This document shows positions 15,821 to 61,572 of a stretch of 64,000 nt of DNA, piece by piece. The translations under genes were made by a program, and so were the position numbers. Source of the DNA: Paramacrobiotus metropolitanus. Its lineage: Eukaryota; Tardigrada; Eutardigrada; Parachela; Macrobiotidae. The stretch is from the NCBI RefSeq assembly GCF_019649055.1, contig NW_026570267.1, forward strand, positions 372,001 through 436,000, written 5' to 3'. Position 1 is the stretch's first letter. Each line of letters starts with the position of its first letter. The notes under the pieces are model-generated. The model was not told the DNA's origin. It searched no databases and saw only the letters and a program-made list of their open reading frames with translations.

Positions 15821-28136
<12,316 letters not shown>

Positions 28137-29073: not shown

Positions 29074-29899
29074 ATGGACGCGTCTACTGAGAAATGTAAG
29101 GTCATATTCAAAAAAGTATCATTTGTTTTACCGGCTGCACGCAGTACGAGTACCGTACAAATAACTGTCAATTTGGGCGTTTTCAGCGGATGATAACGAT
29201 AACGAACCGACGCGCGGGCATACTGTTTGTCGTAAAATTCAGCCAATTTACCAGTATATGTGGGCGAACTTCCTACTGTCCGCTTTGCGATTCATCCTGG
29301 AATGCGGTCTATTCGGGTGGACCGCTTATAGCCTGACAGTCTGCGCCAAAGAAAGAAGTCCGGTAAGGATTATACATTATACAGTTACAATTATTTCCTT
29401 ATTTACGTAAGTACTCGTACTTTAAAGAAATACTGAAAAAGTTAAACGTACTTTTACTTATAAAATAAGAAAAAATACTTATAAAATACTTAAAGGTTGA
29501 CTGCGCGTTTTACAGGCGAAGGATAATTTTTTGGCTTGGTTTTTCTTGGTATTTGCTTGGTACCTTCTGTTCACGATGGCATCTATGTCTTTATGCTGCT
29601 TGCAAATATCGAGAGAAGTTCAACGATGGCGTCCTGGCGACGTACCAGAATCTGAGGTCATCGCTGATTTGGAAACAGCCTATTTGCCGCTGCTTTTCAT
29701 GACGCTGCTGAATTGCGGCCTGCTGGTACTCTGTTGGATGGGCATCGGTTCTGCCTGGAAAGAAATAGCCGGCGCATGGTCGTGTCTGAGCGCAGAAATA
29801 CCGGAAGCGAAGACCGGTCGGTTCATGACGTTATGGACGGGTTTGACGGCTGCCCTGATTTTCACGGGCTGCTGTGTTTGTTACAAAAGTTTCGTTTGA
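29074..29899 (+). CDS. Four-pass membrane protein, paralogue B
   Basis: The model has three exons (29074-29095, 29187-29362, 29516-29899), giving 193 aa. The family is not recognised. There are four hydrophobic segments: around WANFLLSALRFILECGLFG, AWFFLVFAWYLLF, PLLFMTLLNCGLLVLCW and LWTGLTAALIFTGCC. A short polar N-terminus and two cytosolic-looking loops (EVQRWRPGD; WKEIAGAW) complete a tetra-spanning layout. It shares exon structure and about half its residues with the gene at 1160-1997, including QYMWANFLLSAL and RWRPG. The start is the ATG at 29074, which fits the short first exon MDASTEK. A poly(A) signal follows at 30232. The four-span topology and Cys-rich C-terminus invite comparison with tetraspanin-like proteins, but the CCG motif is absent. 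Confidence 0.72.
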
Positions 29900-31577: not shown

Positions 31578-32102
31578 AACTGATTAGTTCTTAAGGATTA
31601 TATGGGAAAATAACACGAAATAGCGGATGATTCTTGGCAAATCTCAAAATCTTCCCAATTCTAGATGTTCTGCTGCAATCAGAAGGAACGTCAGGAATCT
31701 TTGATAAACAATTTGCTTTTGCAGCAGCTCAGTGCACCGGTATTTCACGGCAAATCTTGCACAGCGCCACCTGGCAAAACTGGAATTAGCGAGGCGAGGT
31801 TCGAGTGCATGCCATCCTGTAACGCAGGGTGTGCGCCACAGGGTGCCGCTCTGTGATTCTAGCTTTGCAAAGCGCTTCCGCGCGGTACACAAGCCACAAG
31901 GCACCGGAAACTGCAAAAATTTAGCAAATCGAAAAATCGACAAGCAAAAGTGCAAAACTACAAAATCCGAGTTTTTAACTTTCAACTGAAAATTCTGAGC
32001 ACTGACAGTACAGTCACGTACAGGAAATGATTATTTTCTGCGATTTAAAATTTAACGTAGCGCTTGTGAACTTTTAAAACTTGTTAGATATCTGTTCGTG
32101 CT
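31578..32102. promoter_or_regulatory. Divergent intergenic region between RpS14 and TENT4
   Basis: 525 bp separate the two start codons, so both promoters must lie here unless unseen 5' exons exist. A pyrimidine run on the RpS14 strand (TATTTTCCC, about 40 bp before its ATG) could be the 5' terminal oligopyrimidine start. No TATA box was recognised. Confidence 0.45.
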
Positions 32103-33627
32103 ATGCCTCGTTTCGGGAAATATTATCCAGATAGGTTTGAAAATGGTGAATCTTCAGAATCATCAGCTCTTCGGAACTGCGGCAACTCCAAGAAACATGT
32201 GACGTACGCTACACCATGGATCATCCCGTCTACGAAGCGGTACTGCGCTGGTGTTATTGGCCTGCATCAAGAGATCGAAGATTTTTATGCCTGGATTGCT
32301 CCTCGGGAATGCGAGTACCGTATGCGGCAGAATGTGATTGATCGGATTACGGAGGCCGTTCGTCGCAAGTACCCGCATGCTCTTGTGGAGTGTTTTGGTA
32401 GTTTTCCAACAGGCCTCTTCCTCCCCACCAGCGACATCGATGTGGTGGTATTCGGGAAATGGGAGCAGTTCCCCTTATATACTCTCCAGGAGGAATTTGT
32501 TCGCAGTGGGATCTGTTTTCCTCATGATGTGAAAATTCTGGATAAAGCTGCCGTACCCATTCTCAAGATCACCGACCAACGAACTGGTGTGAAAGTAGAT
32601 ATCTCGGTGCGTTCGGTACATATATTCATCCCTCTTGGTGGTCGACATTGATTAACGCTGGCCTTATTTTGGTTTTACATGTTTCCTCGTTTTGACGCTC
32701 TTTGAATTGCTTAAGTTCTTAACATCGGATTTGTGGATTTAATTCAAAATTTTTTTAATCAGTTATTTAATTTAATCCTCTGAATTTGTGCATTTTAGAA
32801 TATAATTATTTACGTTTATTTTAAAATTTGTTTAACTCGTACATACGAGAAGGTAGATTTAATAGTAGAGTTCTGTTACTTCTGTATATATGTAGCAGCC
32901 ATTGTAGCTGAAAATTTCTGTATCTGCTTGCGAAATAAGTTTGACAATTTTGATTCAAGTTTGTAGTGTTTTTTTACTGTAGTGTTTAGCTAGATGTTTA
33001 GCTAGCTTTAATTTCGAGTGCTGTCTTTTGTAGTTTAATTTGGTCAATGGTATCAACAGCGCGAAGATGCTCAACACGTACATTGCTCAGTTTCCTTGCC
33101 TGCCGAAATTAGTCCTCGTGCTCAAACAGTTCCTTCAGTACCGCGAACTGAATGAAGTATTCACCGGTGGCGTTAGCTCCCACTGCCTGGTCATGATGGT
33201 CATCAGTTTCCTACAACTGCATCCTCGTTATTTTCCCTGTGATCGCGAGGAAAATCTTGGCGTTCTACTCATAGAGTTCTTCGAATTATACGGTCGGCAT
33301 TTCAACTACGCCGAGACCACCATCATCGTAGCCGGTAGCGGATCGTACGTTCCCAAGAAGTCTTTCAAGAAACGTTTATCCGATGGAGAGAGTGTGGGAT
33401 TACTGAGCATTGAGGATCCCATTCAGACGGATCACGATATTGGCCGGTCGTCGTACGGAATTATGGATGTGCGGAATGCATTTGAATATGCCTACTTCCA
33501 GCTGGTGCGGCGTGTTACCGAATACGACGCTGCTGGAGAAAGTATTCTGAGCAGCATTTTCAGAATCTCTGATACCCTTGTGGAATATCGAAAGCTTCTT
33601 CAAGAGCGCTACGGTACCGCCAGCTGA
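32103..33627 (+). CDS. TENT4: Non-canonical poly(A) polymerase, Trf4/TENT4 family
   Basis: A nucleotidyltransferase that adds short tails to aberrant nuclear RNAs or mixed tails to mRNAs. There are two exons (32103-32606 and 33034-33627), giving 365 aa. The catalytic core is visible: GSFPTGLFLPTSDIDVVVFG with the Ser/Asp-Asp pair (Asp111, Asp113), and the third Asp in VDIS (166). The central/PAP-associated domain follows, with LVLVLKQFL, the GGVSSHCLVMMVISFLQLHP block, ENLGVLLIEFFELYGRHFNY, and SIEDPIQTDHDIGRSSYG. It is short for the family: the long low-complexity N- and C-terminal tails of vertebrate TENT4A/B are missing. Either this is a core-only enzyme or an upstream 5' exon is unseen. 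AATAAA lies at 33909. Confidence 0.92.
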
Positions 33628-40303: not shown

Positions 40304-42756
40304 ATGGGATCAGCGAGGAATGTGTGCATACTATTTCGCAGTTTTTTCGCCACCGAATCGTGTTCGATATACACGCTAAACGGTATATGCATTCCACAAC
40401 CACAAGGTGAGCGGAGTTTCGTTCGACGTTCGTACATGATTTTTGCACGCGCAGTTTGAGAACTACATTTTGACGATGACTGACTTTCTCGCAGGTCGCA
40501 AGCGCAGATATTAGACGGAAAGAAACTATCGAAAGAAATTCTGAGCGAACTAAAATCTGACATCGATGTATGGAGCAAAGCCGGCAATCGCCGACCGCAT
40601 CTAAGCGTTATTATGGTTGGAAACAATCCCGCGAGTCTAGCATATATCGCTAACAAGGTGAAGGCAGCGGAAAAAGTTGGTAAGCAATTGGCAGAAATTA
40701 ATGCGTCACTGGCAGACTTAACTAAATGTAAAGTAACTAACGATAAATATAAAGTGGGTATTACTATATTTTAATGTTTTTGTCAACCACCAATCCATCA
40801 CATCCGGCTAAGAAAATGGGCTGTGTATTTTCTTTAAACCTGTTAATAAAAAATTTTGTTTTGAAAATGGTTAATTAAATTTACTTTAGTGGTAAATTTC
40901 TCTGTGGTAAAATTTGCAAAAGTTTTGAACAGCACGTGAATATTTGTTTAAAAACTTGTGCTAGCTACTCATGTAGATGTTTGTATGGAATTCGTTTCTT
41001 GTAATGATTGTTCTTGTTAGTGTTCAGTGTCGCTATCAGCATGCATGAAAACAACTGGCGTAAACTAAAAAAGAGATACAAATTTAAATTTCAAATCCAG
41101 TGTGATTTCCGGTTTGTTTAGTTGGACTTCCGGTTCTTGCATGACATGAACCGGTTATACGAGTAGAAACTGTATATAACTTATACTACTAATACGTCAT
41201 ACTCTCACATGTTTGTGTGCACTATTTGACTATTTCGACATTTTCCGTTTATTACCAGGTGTAACAAGCAACACTTTTCGGTTGCCGGAAAGCGTATCCC
41301 AGTCTGATCTCCTCAATGTCGTGGAATCTCTCAATACTGACCGCAATACAGATGGAATTCTGGTGCAGTTTCCCTTGCCGGCGCACTTATCCGAACACGC
41401 TGTATGTGAAGCGGTGTCTGCCTACAAAGATGTGGATGGTTTTCACGTCCTTAACATGGGACAAATGGTCCAGGGCCGGGAAGGGCTCTATCCCTGCACA
41501 CCACTTGGCGTCATGGAGTTACTAAAACGAAACGGTAAATTCAAAATTCCCGCAAATTCTTTCTTCGAGAAGTGGGTTTGGCTGCCTGTTTTAAAGCTAC
41601 CTGCCGGGCCTTTTAAATGTCAAGGGTAGTATTCCGTACAATGGTTGTGACCTGCTTTTGTTGAAGAACAGCAAATATCAATAATCAGAAATAAGTACAC
41701 TTTTGATAGACTGCTGTACCAGTTTTGCTTGTATATTTTTGCTGTACCAGTTTTGCTTGCTGTACTTGTTTTACTTTGCCAAGTATTTAGTTGCTGTTTA
41801 CTTGGCAGGTGTGGAGACTTTCGGGAAGAACGCTGTTATTTGCGGACGGTCAAAAAACGTGGGAATGCCCATTATGATGCTAATGCACGCTGATGGCCAC
41901 GGTACGGTAAATTGTAGTATTTTTATCTCGGTATTTTATGACAATGTTTCTTTGAATCACCGCCATTTTAATATCGTATACTACAGTATTATGAATGGGC
42001 CGTGACGCTGCAGCGTTTACGTGCGACACCTTGAACGCGTGATTGCACCGATCGCGCGCATGTCTACTTTCATTACTAATACTTTTATTTTAGGCGATGC
42101 TACGACTACCATCTGCCATCGCCATACTCCACCGGAACAGATGAAATTGTTCACAAAAATGGCGGACATACTTATAACTGCCGTCGGGAAGCCGGGTCTG
42201 ATTACCGCGGATATGGTGAAGGAGGGCGTCATTGTTGTCGACGTGGGGATTACGAGAGTTCGGGAAGAACAATCCGATAAATTTGTTTTGAAAGGCGACG
42301 TGGATTTCGAAGGTGTGGGCATGCTTTGATTACTTATTTTCTTCTGATGGAACATTAAACGTATTGCTGGAAATTCTTATGGAATGTCGTTTCTTACTAA
42401 AATAGTAAAAATGTTGTTTATTTTTGATTACACCGTAACAACGTTGTTTACTTGTTTATAGGTGTAAGTGAAAAGGCAAGCTATATAACTCCTGTCCCTG
42501 GAGGGGTAAGTTTTACCATTTTTTTTATATTTAACACCGAACAGTGTCGCAGAAACGAGCGTTTTATGAGAATAATTTTTGTCTTTGCTAGGTCGGCCCC
42601 ATGACTGTGTGTATGCTCATCAAGAACACCTTTATCGCTGCTAAAAAGCTTCGTGGATTCGATTCAAACCTGGAATTCCTCCCATCCAAAAAACTGACCG
42701 AAGTGAATTTTAATTTTATGGAAAACCTTAGGAAGGCTAATGTGGCAACTAATTAA
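40304..42756 (+). CDS. MTHFD2: Mitochondrial methylenetetrahydrofolate dehydrogenase/cyclohydrolase
   Basis: A bifunctional one-carbon enzyme that oxidises 5,10-methylene-THF and hydrolyses methenyl-THF in mitochondria. Seven exons: 40304-40406, 40503-40679, 41259-41534, 41809-41901, 42094-42312, 42462-42505, 42592-42756; 358 aa (human 350). Phases agree throughout. The N-terminal exon ([15 protein letters not shown]) is basic and hydrophobic with no acidic residue in its first 16, fitting a mitochondrial presequence. Motifs: ILDGKKLS; the active-site YIANK (Tyr82, Lys86); [22 protein letters not shown]; the dinucleotide-binding [16 protein letters not shown]; and [14 protein letters not shown]. 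The exon 2 acceptor is a CGCAAG rather than the nearby CGCAG, because only the former keeps frame. It lacks the formate-THF ligase domain, so it is MTHFD2/2L-type, not the trifunctional enzyme. Confidence 0.94.
41711..41766 (+). repeat. Short direct repeat in MTHFD2 intron 3
   Basis: GCTGTACCAGTTTTGCTTG occurs twice in succession about 28 bp apart, followed by a third partial GCTGTACTTGTTTT copy. This is probably replication slippage. Confidence 0.75.
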
Positions 42757-44723: not shown

Positions 44724-47700
44724 ATGGTTAAACCAAAATTTCGCCATATTCGCGTTGAACATGCCAACAATCACAAGATGATGGGTGGCAATTTCCATGA
44801 CCTTTACCATCCCGCTCCGCTGCGCTGGGAATGGATCAACAAATACTTCAGGCTGGTGTGTCTGCTGGTGATTGTCCTACTGGATACGGTAATGACAGCC
44901 TCCCACGTGAATGGGATTAAGCGGGATACCGTACAGCAGCCCTACTGCTGGAGCGAGTACGAGGATGTGGCCAGTCGCGCCTACATTGCGCCGGTCGTGG
45001 TTAAGGCCTGGTGTACGGTAGTGTATTCCCGCAGTCATCACCCGCACTTCAATGCCACCTTTCACGTCAGTAAGATCCTCAAGGGCGGTCCCCATATCGG
45101 CAAATATCTGGAAGAGAATCCCAGGATACAGTTGCATTTCGGGATGCCGTCCGTGTGGACGCAGTTGCCGGTGACCGCGGCTGAGATCCAACAAGAATCA
45201 CTGTTGCGCAATCAAGTGTGCTCCATTGCTAGAGTGGATGTACAGAAAGAATATCTGCTGTTTTTACAACCACACAACGGCCTGGATGAGAGCGGCCTGG
45301 CCACAAATGATGGAGGAGAGGATATGCAAATGGAATCAAACAGTCTGCCCATTACACCGTCACCGGCTATTTCATGGAGCATTTACGCCGCACCCGAAAT
45401 CGTCACTGAGACGGCACTGACAAATGCTCATAAAGTTTTAAGGAGAGGTGAGTTGATGTATTATCAAATATCAATTTAATAATGTAGAATAAATAATTCA
45501 TTACAGCTGCAACTGTATTATGCTTGCAGCACGCGAGTATAAAAAATTTGCAGCAGTGCGATTCAGAAAATAAAATGTATTAAAAAATGTTTTACAAAAA
45601 TTTCTTGTAAAAATTGTTGTTTCCTGTGTATGCTTAACGTAATTTTATGTCTGCCGGACGTTGCATAATTACATCTACAAATGTATGCATATGACCATAT
45701 GATAACATCACTGACGTTTTTATTTCGCCCGCTTATAGAATCTATGAGACGTAGTTGTTTGTATTCAGTGCAGATTGCAGAAGGAATTGTAATACTTTCA
45801 ATGAACACAAACAGAAATTAGTGTTGCACATACGTATTAATCTTTTACGATTTCAAATCATTCAAGAAAAACTGATCATATCACAAAATAAAAATCTCAA
45901 GTTTAAGGAAAGTGCTCTGAATGTTTTTGGATTTGTAAGTTCGAATTGCGGTCATTTTCGTACAACTTATATATATGATATATGACCTAGACCTACATAG
46001 GTATAACTACGCTGGTAAATGTGTTTAATTTGACACAAGCAACAGGATATTAGAAAATAAACCGCAGATCTCAACATGTTTCCATTTACTTAAAATTAGG
46101 TCAGTTCTTTTTTAACAGCCGATCTGACGATTTTGCAAACAGCGGGATAACGCATTATCTTCAAGTTTGTATCCTTTCGAAAATAAGCAAACGCTGTGTA
46201 GATGTACTCGGCACCCCTTATATTACTTCTGGATTGTTTACTATGAGTAGACCAATTTCCGATCCTCGATCGACCCTGATGTCGTAGATCAGCCGCGCGG
46301 TTTTTTTGCTCTAATTCACTGCCTCTGTTCTGGCTCGATTTGGCCACTTTTAAAAATGCGTACGAGTATAAAATGGTAAAACTTCACGCGTGTTGAAGAA
46401 TAAAATTAACCCCGCAATCGAATACATGGCACGCGTAACAATAGCACTCGATTTCGTTAGCCTAAAATTATCAGCAGAAATATTTTTATTATGCAAAATT
46501 AATTATGCCAAAAGAATCAGCGATATTCTATAATGGTAAAAATTAATATCAGTTGCAATAAGCATAGCGTGACTGAGATCGTGCCGGCATTGTTATGCGA
46601 ATATAATCGGTTGAATAATCGAGCATATTATAATCCTTTAAGACGCCATAGATGGTATCAAAGCAGTCTATTATTTTCCTTTTGTACCCAGGATAGACTG
46701 GATGTCGAGGAGTCACTCCTCAAACAGAAAACACAAAAGACACGCGCCTGCTTAATTTTAATGGTATTGTTAGGTGGTGCGGCGGCATGTTTATGGCTGG
46801 TTACAGCACGGTGACGGCTGAATCCAGACCGGTGTTGGTAATAATCAACCACTCATTTGCACATACTGCCGATAGGACAGTGTCAATATTGTTAGGCATC
46901 AGTTAGGGAATAACGACCGTCAGTACAGAGTGTCTGATCGCAAGTCGCAACATGTAATGCATAAAAGAGCCAATAAAATAATGAAAACTATACAAAACAA
47001 AAACAAAAAAATTAGGTTTTTAAATCTAATCACTGCAGAGGTAAATTTTTATTTGCAAAAAATCTTTCTCAAAACTCTCTTCAATAAGACTGCATTTAAC
47101 ACACCCGGTAATTTAAAAATTACCGGGACTTTCCAGTTGGACGTACGTTACCCTTCAAAAACATGTGCAGACCGTTAAGAATTTTTAATTATTCTGTCAC
47201 GAGATTTTTGTGTGAAATTCAGTGTACATCATTAGGCTTTTTTGATGAGCAGCGCATTGATTGATCAGCGGGATGCAGAGCGCGAGGGGAATGCCTGCTT
47301 AACTGGTTAAACTGCGGCAAATCAGTGGAAGTCAGTTCTTTTAAGGGGTAATGAAGATGTAACTTAAGAGAGGAAAATTCTTGTGACAAATTTGTCTTTT
47401 TCTTTCTCTATGGACACTTATATGCCAGCGCGTCCTGCGCATCATGATCATCCACAGCGGTCCTTCTGCTAGGCTCATTTTGGCCGGACATCAGTGGTCG
47501 GCAAGAAGTTGTTGTTGTGTTACTGTTTCTCGTCTCGTTTTGAGTGATTGGAAAGTTTTCCAGTCAAAAGTGTGAAAGATACTGCCAGATGGCTATCCTT
47601 TTCCATGTATTTATCAAATCTGCGGTCAGTCCGCTGTCTGTGGCAGGGAAAGGATAGAAGTTGGACGCTCTGTTAAACATGTGATTTATTTGCCTCTTTA

Positions 47701-50700
47701 AAATGCGTGCAAAATTCAGCATACTTTCCAGTTCATACCGCCAAACTAAATCCACTCAGCAATAATCTCAGGGTCAGTTTGTGTGAAACTTTACTGATAT
47801 TTTAACACATGTATTCTTGCAAAAATTGCTTTTGATTCCTTCTCGTGCACTTACTACAGAGTAGAATCAGTTTTACTGCTACGCCAACAGTACATATGAA
47901 AATTATGGTAAAGATAGTGAAATAATTTATCCTATTATTTAAGTCTGTAGTTCATTACGTAACGTTTGAATAACCTACAGTAAAAAAGTGATCTTATAAA
48001 ATTACAAAGTGCGTAGAAAAGAATACCGTATAGTGCATAGTGCACGGCCGGTTTTAATAAAGTGATATTATTAAAGTGACCAGCGCTGCATACTTACGAG
48101 TTACGACTTACGAGTACCTGAATACAGCGCAAGCAGTTTTATGGTTTTGACTTTTGACCAACCACAGTCTGCAAACGATGTCTTAATCAGTGCGATCATC
48201 CTGACAACTGGCTGATCATGAGGAGCCAGCAACGGTCAGTCCCTGCAAGTAATCATTAATGAGATGGTGTTATATCCTAATTCGATCTAATGGGTACGTC
48301 TTGGTGAGCCCCCGGGTTGGCGGGTGTTGATGGGTTGTGTGTATGCGCCCCGGATGCATACGCCTTACACCGTGCACGGGTACAGAAACATGCATTGCAC
48401 AGACAGGCAGAGAGCCGAGGGTCAAGCCAAAGAAGATGTGCGCAACTGACATGACAATCTGACATGTGACAATGGAAGATCCCTGCACCGCGGTTGCTTA
48501 ATCGATCAATGAATTTATCGCCCAAATGACGAGAAAATCAGATGGAGAAATTGACTTCTTAAGACGGCGGCATTTGATTGCAAGCTCCATTTAGTGGACT
48601 TGTTATGTATGCTGGTGTAACGGTTAGCGGCGGTGTGGTGGCGGCGAGGCCCACAAGGAAGAGTGTTGAATGAGCATAAACCGATCATGGCGGATAATGC
48701 GAACAATAATTTACGTTGATGTTAGGGGAGATGCTGATAATATCCGTCCGATTCTACAGCTTCGTCAGTTGAGGAGATAGCCTCGCATCCCACAACCACA
48801 ACTGAAATACGCACATCTACCGTAGCAATACTCGGTTGCGATAGCGAAGATTTCAAAGTCTTGGCATCCGCTCCTGGATATACAAAAAGGAGGAGGACAG
48901 CATGTGCCGTGTTCTTACAATATTAATTCTACATCTTAAGTTTTTAAAATTTACAACAGAAAATTTATTTTACTGTGGAAAACCACTTAACGTAATAAAG
49001 AAAAACAAGTTCGTACGATATCATGCATAATAACCGCATGCAATGGCTGCAAATGCTGCCACGAGCCACACAAGCACTTCCGCATTCTGAAAATACTATT
49101 CTGTAACTGCACGGAAATGCGTGCTCCACCCTTTTGGCTATTTAAATGCTGCTTTAAAATTACAACTATTATCCGAAAGGATTTTGTGACTGAAAATTTT
49201 TATATTCCGCAGTCAATTCAAATTTTCCGCGTGGTTTTCTCGCAACGTGTATGAATTTGTCAAAGGTTAACGGTTAGCGTTGAAGATGTGAAACACAATG
49301 ATGCAGACCAAATCAAAATCCCGTTGTCTCGTTATATTATTCAAGCCATATCAAATGTCTGCCCGATTGTCAGCGCATAGCAAATTGTCCATGTTGTTCT
49401 TCGTGTCTGATGGATTGTTCAGTAGGCGATATGTAGAGATGCTGCTCCCGATTATTTTCTCTCCCCTCTGGACAGTGCAGTGCTCGAGCAGTTTCATGAA
49501 TGAACGCTTTTAAGGAAGCGTGTGTATGGCGTTTTGATCAGAAGATGACTATTAAGTACTTCCTCACACACCGTGAACTGGACAGTGGGCACTGTGCTTC
49601 GGCCTGCTGCAGGTGAGAGAAGGGAAGGCACTACGAGAAACTTGATCACGGTGCCGAAATCCCTCCCTGAGACAATACTGACACACTGGATGCATGGGAA
49701 AAACAGTTTTCATTGAAAGCCAGTACTCGCTATGCGTCACGGGGGGCTAATGAGTAGGGCAGTAGACGGGGTCGTCTTCATGGGGGAAAAATACTGGCGA
49801 AAGCTGCTTGATGCTGGCCGAAAAGCAAGACCCGCGTATTTATTTCCATCATGCACACTGTGTTCAGTACGACACGAAATTGTCCGGGTGTGTACAGCAC
49901 GCTTGCCTAGGTGGCCAACGAATTATGGCAACTGTGTCTGTCTAATTGTTCCAGACAGTTTCCGAAAAGGCTAATTGTAAGACAAATTCGGGCCATCCTA
50001 ATCAATTTGAGTAAACTGTAATTTCCGGGTGTTTATTTTAGCGACAAGGTTTCTCGGCGGCAGAACGTAAAATTAAACTAGCTGCGTTACAGTAATTACG
50101 AATTTCTGGCATACTCGAATTACTGGCTTCTGTTCCTGTACACGAAACATAATACTGCATTAATTTTGACACCATTTGCAAAAAAATTGTAGTAATGTGT
50201 AAATCAACATTTTTAAAGTTCAGCTCTATCGTGGCTTCCTAACGTTCCCAAAACGCGAACTAACTCACCAGCTTGACTTTAACTTCAGTTTTATTAATAA
50301 TTTTCTTGTATCCTGAAAAGGGCATTGTAATGTTGACACACGTGTAGCGTGATGTTGGGTCTGTGCCGGGTTTTGACTGATGGGTCCGGATTGTTTGAAT
50401 ATGACACATCATAAGCGAGATATTTGAACAACAACAAATCGGTTCCTTCAAAACCCAGCCTGTAAAATTTGTCTGTTTACCGGCAGTCGCGCCGCGGTGC
50501 CCCGTCTTCCACGTACCCGTATTGTAAGCAAAGATTACATACACCAACACCCAGTCATCTTCTAATTAATCGCGCAAGCACCTACTGGTTGGCTGATTCA
50601 TTGGAAGTGTATTGAAATATACTAATCTTATCAGATAGCCCTGATTTGCTGTCGACGTAGGAAGGATGAATTTTTGCCGAATATGTGATAGCGTTTGTTG

Positions 50701-51141
50701 ATATTGCAGCCAAACCGCCCGTTGTTGCCAAACTCCGTCCCTTGAATATAACCGAAGGCGCAGAATTGGCTCTTCATTGTCGGACCAAAGGATTTCCCCA
50801 CCCCAGAGTGCTATGGTACAAAGACGGCATCGCTATCCAACACCGCCAGCGGAAATCGTTAGCGATACGTAATCACAGGTAACCTCTTTTGATACTGCCT
50901 CGGCGCATACTGGCACAAACTGCGCAGCACGATCTACCGGTGCATCTGTTGCCGTTGACCTAATTAGCACCTGCAATCGAAACCTTGTTGTGGAATCCTT
51001 ATATTATCATTTGATTGCATAGGCGAATTCACCGTTTGCGGATTAAAAAATCCACTGTAGAAGACGCTGGAAAGTATCGCTGTGTGGCTGTTAATGTGCT
51101 GGGAGCTGCTGAGTCGGAAACGACTGTTACGATAATGTCCG
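44724..51141 (+). CDS. NRG: Neuregulin, shared N-terminal and Ig exons
   Basis: An EGF-family growth factor precursor that would bind ErbB/EGFR-type receptors. Shared exons: 44724-45447, 50710-50878 and 51023-51141, encoding residues 1-338. Residues 41-58 (YFRLVCLLVIVLLDTVMTA region) are a hydrophobic signal or signal-anchor. Next comes the neuregulin-specific N-terminal domain, whose RAYIAPVVVKAWC matches the AYKAPVVVEGKV block of vertebrate NRG2, with KILKGG and later YLLFLQPHNG in the same order. Exons 2-3 form a C2-type Ig domain: GAELALHC (Cys265), RVLWYKDG, then VEDAGKYRC (Cys318). The first exon ends in phase 1 and fits the Ig exon exactly despite a 5.26-kb intron. An in-frame stop lies a short way upstream of the ATG. 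The Ig part ends in phase 1, into which any of three downstream cassettes can splice. Confidence 0.9.
45448..50709 (+). other. Neuregulin intron 1 (5.26 kb)
   Basis: It runs from donor GTGAGT to acceptor TATTGCAG. Apart from one exon-like segment at 46692-46814, the open frames inside (for example 47564-47755, 48270-48525, 49298-49513, 49732-49974) are short with no family resemblance. It is long compared with most introns in the window and may hold enhancers, but no motif was recognised. Confidence 0.6.
46692..46814 (+). CDS. Possible terminal exon with C-terminal membrane anchor
   Basis: A strong acceptor (TTTTCCTTTTGTACCCAG) is followed by 40 codons, DRLDVEESLLKQKTQKTRA then CLILMVLLGGAAACLWLV and TAR-stop. 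A coiled polar segment with one terminal hydrophobic span resembles the end of a tail-anchored protein such as a SNARE. An AATAAA lies near 46973. It cannot be an alternative end of neuregulin, because joining it to exon 1 in phase 1 gives an immediate stop. No upstream exons were found. Confidence 0.3.
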   Translation, partial: DRLDVEESLLKQKTQKTRACLILMVLLGGAAACLWLVTAR

Positions 51142-51453
51142 GTAAGTGCACTGCAAGTGCAAATGCGAAACTCTTCCCACGTACATAACTGCATTTGCGA
51201 AAACGACGCTTGGGGGACTTTTTTACAGAGTTCTTGGTTTTTCGCATCTATGTCTCACGCTTCGCATTTATATCTCCACATGTCTGTTAAATTACTAATA
51301 CACTGTAAATCAATTGAATTTTTACTATGCTTGCTCGAAACATGTGTTCTGCGAAATTTGAGTAAATTCGGCAGTTCTTGATGACCATTTGCCGTTGATT
51401 TAACTGACATGCAAATAATTGTGGTATGTAAATTAAATGTTTTGTGTCTGCAG

Positions 51454-53976
51454 CTCCGGACTCAGATCACTGGATTGTCAAGGGTGTTCCATGCCCTGAG
51501 CGACACTTTTGCCTTAACGGGGGATCTTGTACATTTTATCCTCGAATCAATGCCAGATCCTGCAAGTAAGTTCTCACACGGAGTGAATCATGGGAAAACG
51601 GTCCCTCTGCATGGCTTGTCAGTTTCAAGTTTACTCGTGTGCTCTTGTATTTGTTTGCATGTTGCTATGTACTCGTATGTCTTGGTTTTCTTGGTCAGTT
51701 CGCGCGCGCTTAAACTACTGGGGCTTTGGCACTGCTGCTTTAAAGTTCTGCTGCATTCTGCTGATGCTACGTTCTGACTCACCTTCCTTACATCCTGCAG
51801 TTGATAACATAATATGATTTTTTAAACATTTGTTCAAATGAAATAATAAGTTTAGCTATAAGCAGCTACAATTTTAACATTGACAGATATGTGAGAAATT
51901 TAGTCGTTGTATACGTATTAAATTTCGTATTAATTTTTTACAATTCTAACAGTGAAAGTGACATCTGACAAGTATGCAAAATCCAATAGGCTGGTATTTT
52001 GTAGTTAACATTGCGTGTTCATGGATCAACCATGTCCATTGTTAATATTTTTATCGGTAACGAGATTTTGGATTCCTACAAATATGCAGGTACAACTGCT
52101 TGCTATTGCACTTTTTGATCTGCACACACACTTTGACCTTTCCGTGTACCTTTATCTACCACAGTTGCATTAACCGCTCGCCAATACTTGCATCAGGCAA
52201 TTTTTCACACTGGCATGTTTCACTACTTCCTAACCCTATCTTCCTTCGTCTAACCAACACACCTATTTAACCCAAAATTCTTCGAATCTTCGAAACTATT
52301 CTTAGCTGCACATGTTAAAGTTCGCTGCGTCAAATCGCTGAGATTATCGCCAACTTTTCAGGTGTCCAGTAGGGTTCCATGGGACCCGGTGTGAACGCAC
52401 CAGTCTTTCAGATGAGACATTCTTTCTTACGGTTCGGAGGCGTAAAAGTATGTAGATGATAATCACACACTTGTTGTAACAAAAAGAGCAATTAAATCCT
52501 AGCTTTTACTTCTTCGGTAATTTATGTTTTGCTCATAAATTTCGAAACCGGTAATTTACAGATTTTAAAGCCATGATATATATATTCAGGCAAACAAAGA
52601 AACTATGCGCGTGCGCGAAGCTTCTTATACGTCTGCAAAATTCGCTTATTATATAAAGCCGTATCAGCGTGCTAGAGTACGATACTGCTACTGCTTAAGC
52701 GTGAGCCAATTTTTTTGCGCTCGTGCAAGGTTTTTGAATTTCTGTGAACTAAAAATTTACTAGTACTTGCATTAAGTAAGTAAAATTTACTAGTACTTGC
52801 ATTTCTTTCTTTCAGTTGCACCGTCGGTTTTGAGGGCGCGCGGTGCGAATTAAAGGGTGGATTTACGATGGAATTAAAAGAACGATGTGAGTACAGACGC
52901 ATGTGCATTGTTAACTTCTGCCTTTAATTCTAATTAATCTTTTTGTGATAGTCTTGTACATTCCAGTGAAATCAAATTCCTAGTTATCTGTTTGCAGCAG
53001 CCGGGGCCGGAGCTTTAGAAGTGTGTGCCTATCTTACCGTAATCACCAATCTTCTCTGTATTATTCTCCTCCTCATTTTACTCTGCTTCGCCTATCGATA
53101 TTTACAAACAACGAAAAAGGATGTGCCTCGAAATAATGCGTAAGTGCAATATTAATTACGCGTGTCTGCTTTAATTAGCTTAACACTATGTAACGAGTAA
53201 TATTGGTTTTCAGTTCAGAACGATCGAGAAATCCAGACAGAACAGCTGCTGCAACGCCGTCCAATGGTTCAGAAAGTTTTTGCACACAATGTCAGTCTGT
53301 CACCGAATCCAGCAGGACCAGTACGATCCATCAGACTCAGGTCAGAAAAACCGAAGCATAAATCCAGATTAGCATTTAGCTGCTTATCATATTGAAAAAC
53401 ATCAGTTGTGTGTGGGCAGCTGAAAATTAATTGTGTAATTTTTCTGTACGCTTGTTTTGTAATGGGTTCTTATTAAAATTGCGACAACAATGTTACTTGT
53501 TTTTTTAGAGTACCGGCATCTGTATATGTATATGCTACGGCTTAAAATTTTATTTAATGATTTTATATGCTAAGCGATAAATGTATAGTTTTATATACTA
53601 AGCGAAAAATGTACAGCTTTACTATTGATTTTAGGCTGATGAGCGACAGACTTTGCTGACCGTTCACACGGAAAAGCACACTTCGCGATCGGGACCGTCA
53701 CGACCAGTCCGCCCGCACCGGAATTCCCAGTTCGACATTCCGGCCCGCAACGGGAGTACCGTGGCCACATGCAATCATCAGCATGTTAACCACACATCCG
53801 CTGATCGCAGCATCCCGCGGTCGGCCGACGGTCAACGCTGGGTCTGGCCACCAGCCGATCCTACAAAGGTCACCACCACCTCCACCTCCCTGGTTCCGCC
53901 GGAAACGCTGGTCGCCATGCAGATTGATCAGTGTGTACAGCGGCGCGTCTCGGTAGCGGAAGTCAGGACGGCATGA
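51454..53976 (+). CDS. NRG: Neuregulin cassette A: EGF, transmembrane, cytoplasmic tail
   Basis: Exons: 51454-51565 (EGF first part), 52816-52886 (EGF second part), 52998-53139 (membrane), 53214-53340 and 53635-53976 (tail). Spliced to the shared exons they give 601 aa. The EGF has all six cysteines: PC, FC in HFCLNGGSC, RSC, then NC and RC in TVGFEGARC. A juxtamembrane KGGFTMELKER follows, then the span VCAYLTVITNLLCIILLLIL ending CFAYRY. The tail is about 170 residues, Ser/Thr/Pro/Arg-rich, with no enzymatic domain. Exon phases are 1-2, 2-1, 1-2, 2-0, 0-stop. The stop is TGA at 53974-53976, and AATAAA lies at 54384. Confidence 0.88.
52752..52803 (+). repeat. Direct repeat, period 30 bp, two copies
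   Basis: AAATTTACTAGTACTTGCAT occurs at 52753 and again at 52783, directly before the polypyrimidine tract and acceptor of the second EGF exon of cassette A (52816). Its position in the branch-point region is notable, though it may be simple slippage. Confidence 0.7.
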
Positions 53977-54383
53977 ATTATGGAAAGAGGCAAAAACTGC
54001 TGAAATGGAAACCGCTATGTTTCGTTCTCTTCATACTCCGTCCCGCGTTCATCTGTCATTGTCTGCCGAGAAGGAACTGTTTGCGAGCGGCACGGCCACC
54101 GTTTTTGGTACCAAATTCCCGGTGAATATGGATATGTAGCTGACAATCAAAGCAATAGCACAAGTTATTTATATTTAACCAGAAAAGATTTGTGGAGTTG
54201 TTAAGATGTTTTTCGCGTTCTTCTCTGTTCTTTTTGCATTATGGATCTCTTTCTCAATGTCCATGACAGCATTGATGGTGTTTGCATTATTGTAAAATTT
54301 ATGCACTCGGGTGTACAATACAAAAACGCCGCCGACACAATGAAATTCGGCTATGCATTTATGCATTTTGTGAACGGTACATG

Positions 54384-54389
54384 AATAAA
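54384..54389 (+). promoter_or_regulatory. Poly(A) signal for neuregulin cassette A
   Basis: AATAAA lies 407 bp beyond the cassette A stop. Cleavage here would prevent use of cassettes B and C. Confidence 0.45.
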
Positions 54390-55382
54390 AAATGACAAAT
54401 TTGTGTATGCAGTGTTCGCCTACAGTATACTCGTAATATAACAGCGATTGTGGCGCGTCTATCCGAAGTTATCAGTAGCTCATTGATTACCGCACTTTGC
54501 AGATTTACGAAAAACCTAATTCTACGTTTTCTGACGAAATTCGATGTGAATGCGGGGTCATTCTGATCGCATGCATTGTGAACGTAAAACTAAATGAAAA
54601 CCATAAATACATGCGCTTATCAACAATACAACATTATCCAGGTGACCCAAAAATATGAAAAATAAAATACGTAATTGAGCCGATATGGTTTCATTTCGTA
54701 TTTAGCATCTCTGCAGATTATTTTGATTACACAGATATGTGCAAATCGCTACCGGTGTGGTCACCTGCGGCATACTCTTACAATTCTGACAGTTTTGAAA
54801 TGTCGCGCTACTTTTCTGGATGCAGTAGCGGTTATCGTGCGATACCTAGGCCTGTAAAATAAATAATTGTGATCCATATTTATTACGTTACTCATAAATA
54901 ATCATACAATCGGCTTCGCGGCTTGATTGGCAATCTAATCTCACAGACAGCGTGGTGTGGCTTACCGCGCTGCATCACACAGGTGTGTTATATTTTGGTT
55001 AGCAAAGCATGCCGGATGATTGCTGCAACTGCGCTTGCTATACTTAAACTTGTGATTTCAACTTTCAGTTTTTACCAGTCTGCTCTTCACATTTACTAAA
55101 ATTGACGTTTTAATGTTTTAATTCAAAGTCTATTTTCTCTCTGGTACAATTACATGAGACATGAGTTTGTCTGTCTGATGGCAACAACGTCGACAAGTAC
55201 GGGTAGTGGATTTCACATGTATACGTACAAACTTGACTGGCCAATTTTAAAATAGTCGGCTGCTTTGTGCTTACTTTTTTGGTCCATTCGATCAGAAAAT
55301 TTTAAAATAATCAGATTCCTGTGAGCTGTGCTCCGCATCGGGTGACCTCACGTTGAGAAATTTCCGTTTTCTAAGCCTTTAG

Positions 55383-55432
55383 TGCCAGAATCTCCAATCG
55401 TGGAAAGCCGATTCCCGCAGACAAAATGACGA
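55383..55432 (+). other. Exon-like 50-bp segment between cassettes
   Basis: It is flanked by a pyrimidine-rich acceptor ending CCTTTAG and a consensus GTAAGT donor. Joined to the Ig exon in phase 1, it reads 15 codons and then hits TGA, and its length is not a multiple of three. If spliced it would truncate the ligand before the EGF domain. It may simply be a chance pair of sites. Confidence 0.25.
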
Positions 55433-55778
55433 GTAAGTTCACTGTTTTCGGAGTTCGGATCCGCATTTTTGAATAAAGCCTGATGACGGCGGATTGCCCT
55501 TTCTCCGTTTTAATTTCGCTTTTTCCCTTTTCTTAATTTAGTAATAAGACTATTCTTTCCGCAAGTATATTCGGAATAGAATAAAATAATGTCGTGTTAC
55601 AGTCATGTGTTTACAGTTAATGTATCTGAATATTATCGTACTGTTTGAATTTTATGCTGCCCAAATATTGCGAATAACATTTCTTTGAATCGGTCAATAT
55701 TAGAAAATTAATAAGCCTCCCAAATACACATAATACATATAAATAAGGTCTGCCTACATTGGTCTGCATATTTTTCAG

Positions 55779-57635
55779 CTGCAGAAAACTGGATCAGGCA
55801 TGGGATTTTATGTTTGGAGCGTTACTACTGTTTAAATGAAGGAATCTGTACATACCAATATCACAATGCTGCGGAAAAATTCATGTGGTGCAAGTAAGTA
55901 TATTTGTACATGCAACATACACTTTTAGGCATGCCTAAAACAGTAGAATATTTTGAAAGTTATAGAAATTAACACCCGTTGAATAACACATTATAATCCA
56001 GTAACAAACTTTTATCTGTACTGCAGCATGCGTGCCTAAGCATCGGATCACTTGTAAATGGGTTTAGAAAACGATTAGAATAAAACTACTGATCAACAGT
56101 TTTGTGTATGTTAATACATAATACTGCGATTGTGCTTTGCTCTTGAAACGCAAAATTAACAGTTATGCAAATACGCACTATATATGTAATCACCGCATGT
56201 TATTAAGCTCGAATGGTTATCAGACCTGTATTCAGTGCTTCAAATCAAATTAAAATGTGTCAGTGCAGTTACAATAATCTCCTTTTTTTCAGCTGTACAA
56301 ATGGATTTGAAGGTGCTCGATGCGAACTACAAACCGGCGAAAGTAGTGAACAACGAGGTACTCGAGACAACGTTTGCAAAGACCATTTGTGACCGATCCT
56401 CGATATTCTATAAGCAGAAAGAAGGTTTCGAACGAAATGTTTAACTGCAGAATGCAGAACTACCATACAGTAATTAATTCTATCATTTAATATGAGATGG
56501 TCAAGCACCCGACAATCACCGGCATACCCAATGCGTACGAGTACAGCACTCGTACATAAAAGAAAAATATGCGAGTACTATCTGCAAACTTAAAATTGTT
56601 TTGCTTTTACTGAGCTCAGAACAAGAGTATATATGGCAAGGAGAAAAACTATTTAAGTTTTCAATTATTAAAACGTGCCTGTGTCACATAAATATTGGCA
56701 ATATTGTAAGCAAACTTTATACTTCATATACAAATAGTATGAAGTTGTGATGGAATTTTTGACTTATCATGAACGTTGTATTGCAGTTGTTGGAGCTGGT
56801 TACCGTTTTTTTCTCGCCTTAATCTTCCTTTTTCTCATTATCCTTGTTGTCATCTTATTGTGCGTATTGTACCGGTACTGGAAAGCAGGAAAGTGTGTTC
56901 CATCAAACAGCGAGTATGTGAACTGCTCTCTATTTAGCGAGATGGCTTCTCTTAATTTTCAACATATGCGGTTTTTCAGATCCCCTCAGAATATGTCCCC
57001 AGAAGCAAAAGCGCCGACTGCAAACTCATACCACTCTGGGATCACCGGTCCCCGGGCGATTGTGGTACAAAAACATTGCATTCAAAATTCGTTTAGTTCT
57101 AGTTTTTGTGCGTTGCTTTGAAATTTTGTAGTACTTCGATAAATACTCGTATGTGCATGACTGCATTATATTATACGCCATACGGTATGCAACACGCAGT
57201 TTGTGTGCAGCTTTTCGCTTTTATAACTACTTTGTACCCATATTGGTGTTATTATTCATATGCAATTCTTGCCTAATTTTATTTTAGGATGAAGAAAAGG
57301 AATCTCTTTTGTCCGAAACAGTAGCTGCCGCAGTGCCGGCCCCTGTTCAGCGATCGACATCATGCCCTTTACCTTCCCTGCTGCAGCACAGCCCGATTTG
57401 GACGGACCAGCCTACAAAATCTGGAAATCTTGCGTCCGATTGTGATAAAGATCGTATTGAAGTGCACAACTGCTCTAATAAGTCTTGCGATCATAATCTC
57501 ACGCTACTGAAATTAAAAAATACGGCGTGGAAGGTAGCCGGTCATCCGGAACATGTAAGCTCACCACCCGATACTGTTTTGACCATCGAGATGGATACCA
57601 TTGTAACGGAACAACAAATTTCAACACCTAGCTGA
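55779..57635 (+). CDS. NRG: Neuregulin cassette B: EGF, transmembrane, cytoplasmic tail
   Basis: Exons: 55779-55893 and 56293-56357 (EGF), 56787-56913 (membrane), 56980-57064 and 57288-57635 (tail). Joined to the shared exons they give 583 aa. The EGF keeps six cysteines (LC, YC in YYCLNEGIC, WC, NC, RC in TNGFEGARC), but the loop between Cys3 and Cys4 is one residue longer than in A, and the LNGG motif is LNEG. The span is FLALIFLFLIILVVILLCVL, then a YRYWKAGK stop-transfer. Phases match cassette A exactly at every junction. The 66-bp intron 56914-56979 is in frame and could be retained. The donor at 57065 (GTG/GTACAA) is the weakest choice; without it the frame ends at 57119. The tail includes Cys-rich CSNKSCDHN and an acidic C-terminus. 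Confidence 0.84.
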
Positions 57636-60301
57636 AGTCGAGATCGAATATGACGGCCTGGATGTACTCGTGTAATAATTAACTTAGCACGACTTTTTGT
57701 TAGTGTTAACTTAGTTGGCCTTTTGCATTTGTCACCTGCCCTTCAAGCACGTTTTTTGTTATTTATTTCGCTGTATGTTCATTTTACTGCACGGTGTGTC
57801 AAATTCTGCATATTTGTTTATAAGTTGTTAGAATGTTTGCGCTTATGAAAAACAAAAAAACCTGGCTTGACAGCATTGTATCTGATCGATAGTGAGTTCT
57901 TACGTAGTTTGAGAAAAATGCTCGATTTTGCGTGAAGGCACATAAATGATCACAACAAGGTGTGACACTTGCTCTACAACATGAAACAAGGTCAATATTG
58001 TGCAAAGTTTATTCTCTCATTTAAAATTAAATATTTTGAATAGAACGGAGGTTTTCAACTTGTTTACACCTAAACTAAAACTGCAGTATTAAGCATAAGC
58101 AAGTTAAGAAAATTGGCAAGATACGTACACACCACTGTGACACCAGAAACTGGAAAAAATTTCTTCGCCTGCAATCTGTGCATTTGGATGGGCTTACTAG
58201 GAAATAATGCGCTATCATAGAATTCGAAAATTTGCTATATGAAGCCTATCACGTATATATACACGTAGTTGGTGATAAGAATTTAATTCTCCCGCATTCC
58301 ATGGACGTAATCATATCTTACAACCCGAAGCGCTAAAATTACGGAGTGTCTTCCGGTTCGAGCTGAGATTTCTCACCATGGATTGCGTGCTTCTGTAGTA
58401 ACGTGCAACTGTACATCAAATTTGAAGAAGGAATTAGAACCTCGAAAGAAGATAATTATTTTTTAACAAAATGATGAGTAAAAAGTGAAAGCGATGCAAG
58501 CACGTGCAATGAAAAGCTAATTTTGCATTTGCTTGTGTTAAGCCGTACAAATTTTCGTATACTGCGTATGCGCATGCATTGTTTGAAAATGTGGACAATG
58601 GGACATGCGCTTTAGTGGCTTATCTAATGTAAATAAAAGTACATATATGCACATGCAGTTATTGTTCGAATGCTCATATACTCTGTAGAGACTAACGCAT
58701 TAAATAAAGCCTAAAGGTCAATTTTGCGTTATTAATTGCTTGATACCTATATGTAATTGTGGAGTTTGGTATATATGTAGTATGGAATACACTCAATGGA
58801 ATTTGTGGTAAACTATCATACCGGCCACATCAAAGGTCTATTGTGCTAGATTGTTCAAACAAATATTTTATCAGGGTTTACTCATTCGATATTACATCCG
58901 CATTTTCCATTTGATTACAGTGGAGCCGTGTCGTAAAGTGGGCACTGCTAAATGCTTATATACCAACACCTCATTTGCTATTATGACGCAAATTTAATAT
59001 TGAACTCGAAACGTTTAGGTTGGGTCAGTTTGCCCAACACCCGAGTTATTTGTTTTATTAGCGTGCAGGCGATCTTGACTTTTATTTGTCTTCCTTGCAT
59101 ATTGGCGCACGTGAATCGCGCTTTCTTGTTATTCGGCGCAAACATTTATTATAAATTTGTATCAAACGGTGACGTTGAAAATATGTGATGCCGATTGAGT
59201 TTTTGTTGCTATAATAGTATGTGGTACTGTTTAATTCGTTGATCAGAATTGGCCACTACTCTATAGTTTGCATCTTGTTGCTTAATTCTGCGCTATATTT
59301 GTTCTTTGTCCACTCACATATCCACCACAACTGGATGCTGTGCTATAGTAAACATCTGTAACTGGTTTCTGAAGATATTGCATTAATTACGGTATCTGAG
59401 AGTTGCACAGTGCATGGTTATCAGGATGTATTCGATTCTACTAATTTTGATGGACATTTTCGACACTGGATCGCGTGATCAAATATGAACTTCATTGCTT
59501 TATTGTAACTTGTCTTTTCGGAAACACCGAGTTTTAATCTGTCCATGTTGATATTGTACGGAAGATGACATTTCCTTGAACCGGAAGCTGGAAAACCATT
59601 CGAAACATTGTTAAGGTACCGATGTAATTCAAGTATTCGAAGAATATTGCTGCTTTTCTGCATTTATGTAACCCAGTATACACATGAACGTGAATATTAA
59701 AGAAATAATTTATCCTTTATACGAAAACAGCATTTGGTGATTGTTTTTTTCCGCTACTACTAATTTATGGAATGTTTCCCTAAATTAAAAAAAAGCACAA
59801 ATGGGACTTGCTTTTAAATCATACACGATCGAAAGCGTGGTAAATGGCAATCCGGACTGTGCTAACAGAACGGAAGAGTATCGATTTTCGGATGTTTTTC
59901 TCATTGTTTGGATTTTTCAGATTATTCTCACGCTTATTCGTGTTGCCTTCTATTCGCGTAGTCGCAACATTATACTGCTTGCTGCAATGGATACGTCTCC
60001 AGGTAGGATGTTTCGTGATCATGTAAATGTTCGTTTTACATAATAAGGAATGTATTCCGCGTTTATTGTCAGCTATTCGGTAATGTTTACAACTATGACA
60101 GTACTCCTACCGAATCAATACATAAGCACGCTCTGCAACAACTGACTTGTGAGTTTTGCAGTCGGATGCGAATAAATTCACCATTCGAGACTTTGTTTGT
60201 TCTATCGATATTCCAAAAATGACATATTACGATCTATCCTCATAAGAAACTAAAAATGAAATGTTGATGATTGACCAACCGTTTTCTAAACCTTTTGCTA
60301 G
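57636..60301 (+). other. Spacer between neuregulin cassettes B and C
   Basis: It contains an AT-rich 3' UTR for cassette B, with the first convincing AATAAA only at 58703. An open frame at 59801-60043 has a hydrophobic segment (FLIVWIFQIILTLI) but no EGF motif and no clear splice phase, so it is not called. Confidence 0.5.
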
Positions 60302-61572
60302 ATGTGACGCACTGGACGTTTCAAGGTTTACCATGTCGGCAACGCATGTTTTGCTTAAACGGAGGATCATGTACATATTTTCCTCGGCTAAATATTCAAG
60401 CGTGCAAGTAAGCCAAAATAGCTCATTAGAGCTGTACGAAAAAGCAATTTCCCATTAATGATCCTTTCTAAACTGTTGTTTTCTAGTGTACATGTAAATA
60501 TCGTCATCAGGGCACCGTATTAATTAATCATTTGTGTTGTCAAAAATTAGTTTATTTATACGTGCTTTATTAGAAGTTTGCCACTGACCATGAAGTTGGT
60601 AGAAACCTTGATACATTGAATACGTACGTAGTGAAGAAAAACAAATTTATATACTATATTATGTCCATATATTGGGCAATAAGTCAGACTAAAACGTCTG
60701 TGCTTTAATTAATGATTTTGTCCTTAATTTTATCCATTGAATGTAATTATAGTGCCTGTATATGATGGCTCTACTTTGTTTGTATATTGAATTACTTAAT
60801 CATTACGAATTAAGTGCTGTGCCCGTAAGTGCAGTGCTAATTATCAATGCTATCCATTACAGCTGTTCTGTTGGATTTGAAGGATCGCGTTGCGAATTTG
60901 TAACGAATCTCCTTAGCGAAAGTACAAGTGAATCTCGAACAAATAATGGTAAAACATGCTTATATGGTTTAGCCCGAGCACAGATCACAGATACTTTTAT
61001 ATGAAAACTGAGTCATCATTGATGTCTTTTAGTGTGTTCATATGAATCCTTTTTGGCCAACGATACAGGATTCCGCATTTTCCTTATATTTACCAACATT
61101 ATAATCATTATCTTGTTGTGCCTCCTCACGGCCTTCGTCTGTAGACTGCGTAACGGGCTCGAAAGGTCATCCAGTATATACTATGTCGGTAGCACAACAA
61201 AGGTCACTCGGTCTACAACACGCCACATCATTTTACAGACCAAGTACGAGCGACGACGCGCCAGCAGCGAGGGCATTGTGTGATCTGAAAGTGCCAAACG
61301 AGGCGGGAATCCGTTGTAATGCTGCTGGCCATCCGCGAAAACCCACCTATGTGGAGCGCGTTATGTCCGTTTTGGGGATAAAATCCGGCGATCCTCGAGA
61401 AGATTATCATGCGCTGTCATCGACAGCACGGACATCATTCGATTCTGGTAACGGTGTATCGACTTATGAAGAGTCGGTGCCGATCAGCCAGCCGGCTTCA
61501 AAATGGGCCATTGTGCGAAAGAAATTTATAGAGCCGGACGAGGTCGATACCGAAAATGAAATGGCGGATTGA
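60302..61572 (+). CDS. NRG: Neuregulin cassette C: EGF, transmembrane, cytoplasmic tail
   Basis: Exons: 60302-60407 and 60863-60948 (EGF), 61033-61165 (membrane), 61239-61572 (tail). Spliced to the shared exons they give 556 aa. The EGF has six cysteines (PC, FC in MFCLNGGSC, AC, NC, RC in SVGFEGSRC). The juxtamembrane stalk is longer and Ser/Asn/Thr-rich. The span is IFLIFTNIIIIILLCLLTAF, then VCRLRNG. Phases again are 1-2, 2-1, 1-2. The last intron (73 bp, donor GTCATC, acceptor CATTTTACAG) is weak at its donor. If retained, the frame continues into a different basic tail and stops at 61283. If spliced, a 111-residue tail ends EPDEVDTENEMAD. AATAAA lies at 62542. Confidence 0.85.

Follow-up and report, generated by a model that had tools for sequence, protein, structure and literature searches.

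Organization of the locus

The window analyzed here is a stretch of 64,000 nucleotides from the tardigrade Paramacrobiotus metropolitanus (contig NW_026570267.1, positions 372,001 to 436,000 of the forward strand). Coordinates are those of the window, and positions in the 10 kb past its end carry the prefix L001. Between 44724 and 61572 on the + strand, the window holds exons for an N-terminal domain, one immunoglobulin-like (Ig) domain and three epidermal growth factor (EGF) domains, and each EGF is followed by its own membrane span and tail. We call the three exon sets cassette A (51454-53976), cassette B (55779-57635) and cassette C (60302-61572). We favor, as fairly likely, the reading that this is a single gene of the neuregulin (Ig-EGF) type in which one 5′ part serves three alternative 3′ cassettes.

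In the shared 5′ part, the first coding exon (44724-45447, + strand) encodes a hydrophobic signal segment, which begins at residue 44, and the N-terminal domain; it ends in a phase-1 donor. The Ig I-set domain is encoded by two exons (50710-50878 and 51023-51141, + strand) identified by the gene model and Pfam. When joined, they match Pfam I-set PF07679 with an E value of 3.2e-19, and the second ends in a phase-1 donor whose frame fits all three cassettes. Across both strands of 74 kb, the Ig-like motif D.[GA].Y.C is found at a single place. A Pfam search gave no match for the N-terminal part. At E up to 1 the N-terminal exon found only itself in the genome, and comparison with solved structures returned chance matches alone (best E 0.9). 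The mean pLDDT of the predicted fold was 34.8. A type II neuregulin N-terminus, suggested by a by-eye resemblance to GGF2 and agrin NtA, was not supported (BLASTP E 0.18 against a GGF2 segment).

The cassettes have the same order of exons on the + strand. In cassette A, the first half of the EGF, from the first to the fourth cysteine (C1-C4), lies at 51454-51565, and the second half (C5-C6) with the juxtamembrane segment lies at 52816-52886. The membrane span is at 52998-53139, the first tail exon at 53214-53340 and the last tail exon, with the stop codon, at 53635-53976. The corresponding exons of cassette B are 55779-55893 (C1-C4), 56293-56357 (C5-C6), 56787-56913 (span), 56980-57064 (first tail exon) and 57288-57635 (last tail exon with stop). 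The junction of 56980-57064 is the least certain, with the lowest donor score of all (4.2). Cassette C consists of 60302-60407 (C1-C4), 60863-60948 (C5-C6 and juxtamembrane segment), 61033-61165 (span) and a last tail exon with stop (61239-61572). The EGF halves were placed by the gene model and a motif scan, the spans by the gene model and hydrophobicity, and the tails by the gene model; for the last tail exons of B and C, shuffles were also used.

All introns are GT-AG, and we chose the exon boundaries manually among such sites so that the reading frame stayed open. The agreement of phases between tail junctions is therefore in part a product of this choice. By contrast, the sequence itself fixes the EGF junctions: in all three cassettes there is an acceptor AG, and AA/GTAAG (slash, exon end) after C4. 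The exons start in phases 1,2,1,2,0 in A, 1,2,1,2,0 in B and 1,2,1,2 in C. Conceptual proteins that combine the shared exons with A, B or C have 601, 583 and 556 amino acids, respectively; they are open throughout, and from the Ig exon each cassette reads to its own stop. A preliminary description of this stretch had placed the end of the Ig exon at 51141 and the EGF acceptors at 51454, 55779 and 60302, and the gene model reproduced all four positions.

Each of the three EGFs has six cysteines, with an intron of phase 2 between C4 and C5, directly after the C4 codon. The spacing of C1 and C2 is five residues in every EGF, an Arg precedes C6 in every EGF, and the C3-C4 loop is longer in cassette B than in A and C. 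Each cassette encodes a single strong hydrophobic span, with a mean Kyte-Doolittle (KD) value over 21 residues of 2.73 (A), 3.64 (B) or 2.98 (C). From two residues past C6 to this span there are 19, 16 and 31 residues in A, B and C, respectively.

Number of cassettes

We scanned both strands of 30 kb (the window from 44001 onward and the 10 kb past it) for split EGFs, using a second-half pattern shaped on these cassettes. Of the nine rows returned, seven are on the + strand and comprise the first and second EGF halves of the three cassettes plus one unrelated row; the two rows on the - strand are unrelated. The AA/GTAAG donor after a first half was found in the three cassettes only; the three unrelated rows are without it. 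When the genome was searched with EGFs A, B and C, we obtained 12, 6 and 12 matches, respectively, at E up to 10. Below 1e-10, every match was the first half of a cassette EGF. Outside the locus, the searches reached at best an E of 8.6e-4, for a whole EGF that lies unsplit within one open frame.

Family identity

In the account of PMC1618406, ErbB ligands are recognized by an EGF that is interrupted by a splice site between C4 and C5 and lies near the membrane span; an Arg before C6 is also named. All three cassettes have the C4/C5 splice site and a membrane-proximal EGF. The neuregulin type is defined in PMC4914847 by an Ig I-set domain, an EGF and a membrane region, and the locus has this layout of Ig I-set domain, EGF and membrane span. 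A profile of the three EGFs, compared with solved structures, matched a Notch fragment best (E 1.4e-9), followed by EGF/TGF-alpha, EGF, heregulin and Spitz (2.6e-8 to about 6e-6); EGFs of clotting factors were matched as well, from 8.9e-6. In the consensus of mammalian EGF ligands, seven residues usually separate C1 from C2, although this spacing is not defining; the three cassettes differ from it in having five. No Pfam match to the vertebrate neuregulin intracellular domain was listed for the three cassettes at E up to 1, a search in which filters drop most matches above about 0.1. Because of the C1-C2 spacing, the lack of a listed intracellular domain and the unmatched N-terminal domain, we file the locus as Ig-EGF type. 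It is probably an Ig-EGF (neuregulin-type) ligand gene, as judged from domain layout, and we do not claim orthology to NRG1/2 or Vein.

In the genome, the EGFR-type domain GF_recep_IV was found at one locus (C30) and the Recep_L domain at two (C30 and C207). The C207 locus is presumably an insulin receptor. Because GF_recep_IV occurs at a single locus, one EGFR was found. Binding and activation of this receptor by the three EGFs are predictions.

Divergence of the cassettes

The EGFs are identical at 26 of 47 positions between A and B, 30 of 47 between A and C and 21 of 44 between B and C, and none of 2000 shuffles reached any of these scores. The preliminary description was right that three exon sets, each with a six-cysteine EGF split between C4 and C5 and a membrane span, stand behind one N-terminal domain and one Ig domain; their phases match and the EGFs are homologous. 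For each pair, 48 codons were compared: the share of silent sites changed (pS) is 0.89 (A-B), 0.79 (A-C) and 0.63 (B-C), and that of replacement sites changed (pN) is 0.31, 0.23 and 0.36, respectively. Because the silent sites are at or near saturation, the duplication of the cassettes is old. Judged from these values, amino acid change is held back in all three EGFs, and the cassettes are old and constrained.

The juxtamembrane and span segments are also alike beyond composition (score reached in 9, 8 and 0 of 2000 shuffles). The tails were earlier described as different in each cassette. This holds for tail C, for which kinship with A and B was not detectable (1309 and 1239 of 2000 shuffles reached the score), but not for tails A and B, which are homologous (0 of 2000). 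The groupings therefore conflict: the EGF places A nearest to C, and the tail places A nearest to B. It is possible that the tail of C was replaced or that conversion took place between EGF exons; either event would explain the conflict.

Proposed use of the cassettes

In the favored reading, the Ig donor at 51141 would be spliced to one of the three EGF acceptors (51454, 55779 or 60302), and cleavage and polyadenylation would follow after the chosen cassette. With each choice would come a separate complete EGF, membrane anchor and cytoplasmic tail, and a separate end of the transcript. In this way the locus would make three ligands, anchored in the membrane and probably shed, that act on the one EGFR found. 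Because the Ig domain of NRG1 is said, in a figure legend of PMC7297728, to bind heparan sulfate proteoglycans of the matrix, the shared signal, N-terminal and Ig part may act in localization, holding the ligand at the cell surface or in the matrix. The cassettes would supply different receptor-binding modules, cleavage sites and tails, and would in this way govern how strongly the receptor is bound, how the ligand is shed and what the tail does.

The matching junctions share their phase, and three open frames run from the Ig exon; both observations argue for this reading. It is further favored by the three split-EGF exon pairs in 30 kb, by the pN and pS values of the EGFs and by the lack, in all three cassettes, of an in-frame ATG between the acceptor and C1. 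The anatomy, the frames and the single N-terminal and Ig domains agree with the earlier proposal of one locus for three anchored ErbB ligands. The exons, frames, phases and homology are seen in the sequence itself; the joining of B and C to the Ig exon, like shedding and the identity of the receptor, we infer. The same proposal had presented the arrangement as an alternative to gene duplication, and this wording needs qualification, because the cassettes themselves arose by old duplication within the locus.

The common phase of corresponding junctions could also let splicing combine parts of different cassettes. If the two EGF halves and the span are taken in forward order, 10 combinations are frame-compatible (non-decreasing triples of A, B and C). 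However, we think it improbable that the locus is a combinatorial generator of ligands, chimeric EGFs included, for a single receptor.

Several observations weigh against a single gene with alternative cassettes, or at least lend it no strength. First, tandem duplicates inherit their phases, so that identity of phase alone is no proof of joining. Second, AATAAA is present past the stops of A, B and C (5 copies in 1802 bp, 3 in 2666 bp and 2 in 2428 bp, respectively), but the intron between the N-terminal and Ig exons, taken as a control, has 8 copies in 5252 bp. Because the hexamer is also common there, the signal after each stop is at most permissive. Third, codon-usage scores of the EGF first-half exons are negative (-7.5, -5.6 and -10.6 bits for A, B and C), and this scoring did not separate exons from intron. 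It was trained on 1387 codons from hand-picked neighboring open frames, several of them without a Pfam match. Because several accepted exons score zero or below, codon usage neither supports nor refutes the exons. Fourth, the Pfam EGF model fits weakly: A and C score 19.4 and 17.1 bits against a cut-off of 21.5, and B has no match at E up to 1. When each exon was searched alone genome-wide with this model, none of the three cassettes was among the 85 matches (150 of 277 candidates scored). Fifth, EGF A as a query recovers cassette B only at E 0.0035; therefore, a further ligand that is equally diverged could be missed. Finally, possible first exons lie upstream of C and B, and these bear on the main competing explanation.

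Alternative explanations

That explanation, which we consider rather unlikely, is a row of tandem genes. Cassette A would belong to an Ig-EGF gene, and C, perhaps also B, would be separate EGF-ligand genes, each with a promoter and a short first exon of its own, formed by duplication of the 3′ half only. A separate start would be less likely for B than for C. The spacers (1802 bp between A and B, 2666 bp between B and C) could hold promoters, and about 300 bp upstream of cassette C there is a candidate first exon of its own (59801-60002, + strand). This exon has 67 codons, is hydrophobic and ends in a phase-1 donor; it may be a chance exon. At strict thresholds, which were chosen after the exon had been seen, no other such exon occurs in 148 kb of strand, and none of 400 shuffles of the B-C spacer yielded one. 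At looser thresholds, however, 148 kb of strand contain 2 to 6 phase-1 exons including this one, so that the two spacers together would be expected to hold about 0.06 to 0.18. Therefore, the exon is suggestive, not decisive. Its charges, assessed by eye, are acidic before and Arg-rich after the hydrophobic stretch. Such flanking charges favor an N-terminus outside the cell; the EGF would then lie in the cytosol, where it would be ill-suited to a ligand. A genome search at E up to 10 recovered nothing but the exon itself. We also observed that it contains an NRT site and resembles the start of an N-out membrane protein.

For cassette B, a two-codon ATG exon with a strong phase-1 donor lies about 350 bp upstream (55426-55432), where 0.2 are expected in the spacer at that donor strength. 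At a donor score of at least 5, however, such mini-exons are common. The A-B spacer has four phase-1 ATG-to-donor candidates, none above 10 codons, and the B-C spacer has five, of which one is the 67-codon exon. For mini-exons, the count is 4 against 1.8 expected in the A-B spacer and 4 against 2.7 expected in the B-C spacer. The single genomic match of the N-terminal exon at E up to 1 and the lack of a second Ig-like motif in 74 kb also argue against tandem genes, and for one gene with a shared 5′ part.

A variant of the favored reading is that splicing joins every cassette to Ig, while a second promoter, followed by a first exon specific to C, additionally drives expression of C. The exon at 59801-60002 would serve for this purpose, and vertebrate NRG1, as described in PMC7297728, can begin at several alternative 5′ ends, one of which, type III, encodes a membrane segment at the N-terminus. 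In contrast, the topology of the tardigrade exon is, by eye, reversed, and it may have arisen by chance; we hold this mixed use to be decidedly improbable.

It is very unlikely that one or two cassettes are decaying relics that have gone out of use. The missing Pfam EGF match and the longer C3-C4 loop of B could be taken as signs of decay. However, the 14 modeled cassette exons are free of frameshifts, stops and broken splice sites, replacement changes are well below silent changes, and the six cysteines are retained in all three EGFs. A trans-spliced operon, with a leader placed straight onto the EGF exons, was judged unlikely, because none of the three cassettes has an in-frame ATG between the acceptor and C1.

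Comparison with known systems

The layout resembles that of vertebrate NRG1 types I and II, which, as described in PMC7297728 and PMC3176322, have an Ig domain, an EGF followed by a span, variable tails and spliced isoforms. Neuregulins also fall under the description of the C4-C5 splice site in PMC1618406, as the cassettes do here. According to PMC3176322 and PMC7297728, however, the alpha and beta exons of vertebrate NRG1 alter part of the EGF, the stalk and the a/b/c tail vary, and one span exon is described. At the tardigrade locus, the first half of the EGF, its second half, the span and the tail are all present in three linked sets.

Insect Vein likewise combines Ig and EGF in one ligand, and a C4-C5 splice site is reported for vein in PMC1618406. 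The Vein of Tribolium, as described in PMC8458297, is secreted and has a PEST region between Ig and EGF, whereas the tardigrade locus has three membrane-anchored endings. The locus does not fit a Vein-type secreted form without a span, as all three cassettes have a strong hydrophobic span. In Caenorhabditis elegans, SISS-1 and IGEG-2 have an Ig-like domain and an EGF, and for IGEG-2 the order Ig-EGF-TM (transmembrane segment) and a C4-C5 intron are stated (PMC12485627). These are two separate Ig-EGF genes in that account, compared with three cassettes behind one Ig domain here.

A shared 5′ part with a choice of 3′ ends has precedents of another kind. In Drosophila lola and mod(mdg4), shared 5′ exons are joined to many alternative 3′ exons that encode different functional domains. 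These two genes encode nuclear regulators, whereas the tardigrade locus is a membrane growth-factor gene. In a search of open-access literature we found no paper on neuregulin in tardigrades, on exon duplication in the EGF domain of neuregulins or on mutually exclusive EGF-like domains in invertebrate neuregulins, and among the titles listed by broader searches none describes a gene of this kind.

If all three cassettes are joined to the Ig exon, one EGFR ligand gene would yield three complete ligands through the choice of its 3′ end, where other animals use several genes. The isoform variation of NRG would then extend from part of the EGF to the whole module of receptor binding, anchor and tail. 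Because the Ig part and the receptor would stay the same, the locus would also allow a natural test of the separate contributions of EGF, anchor and tail.

Neighboring genes

Upstream of the locus, protein kinase and CNH domains were observed at 19637-20011 and 26126-26647 (+ strand); together they presumably represent one MRCK/citron-like kinase gene. Exons of a Cid1/MTPAP-like poly(A) polymerase lie within 32088-33624. A methylenetetrahydrofolate dehydrogenase/cyclohydrolase exon is at 41180-41626, and its gene, which seemingly extends from about 40484 to 42329, is directly upstream of the neuregulin-type locus. Three open frames (1545-1994, + strand; 29501-29896, + strand; L001:5455-5952, - strand) share, by eye, hydrophobic stretches around [QR][QR]WRP and AY[VL]PL. 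None of the three has a Pfam match, and they possibly form a lineage-specific family of membrane proteins. The downstream neighbors are an SRAP (HMCES-like) domain at L001:3191-3532 (+ strand) and the C-terminal domain of a CNNM metal transporter at L001:7774-8850 (- strand).

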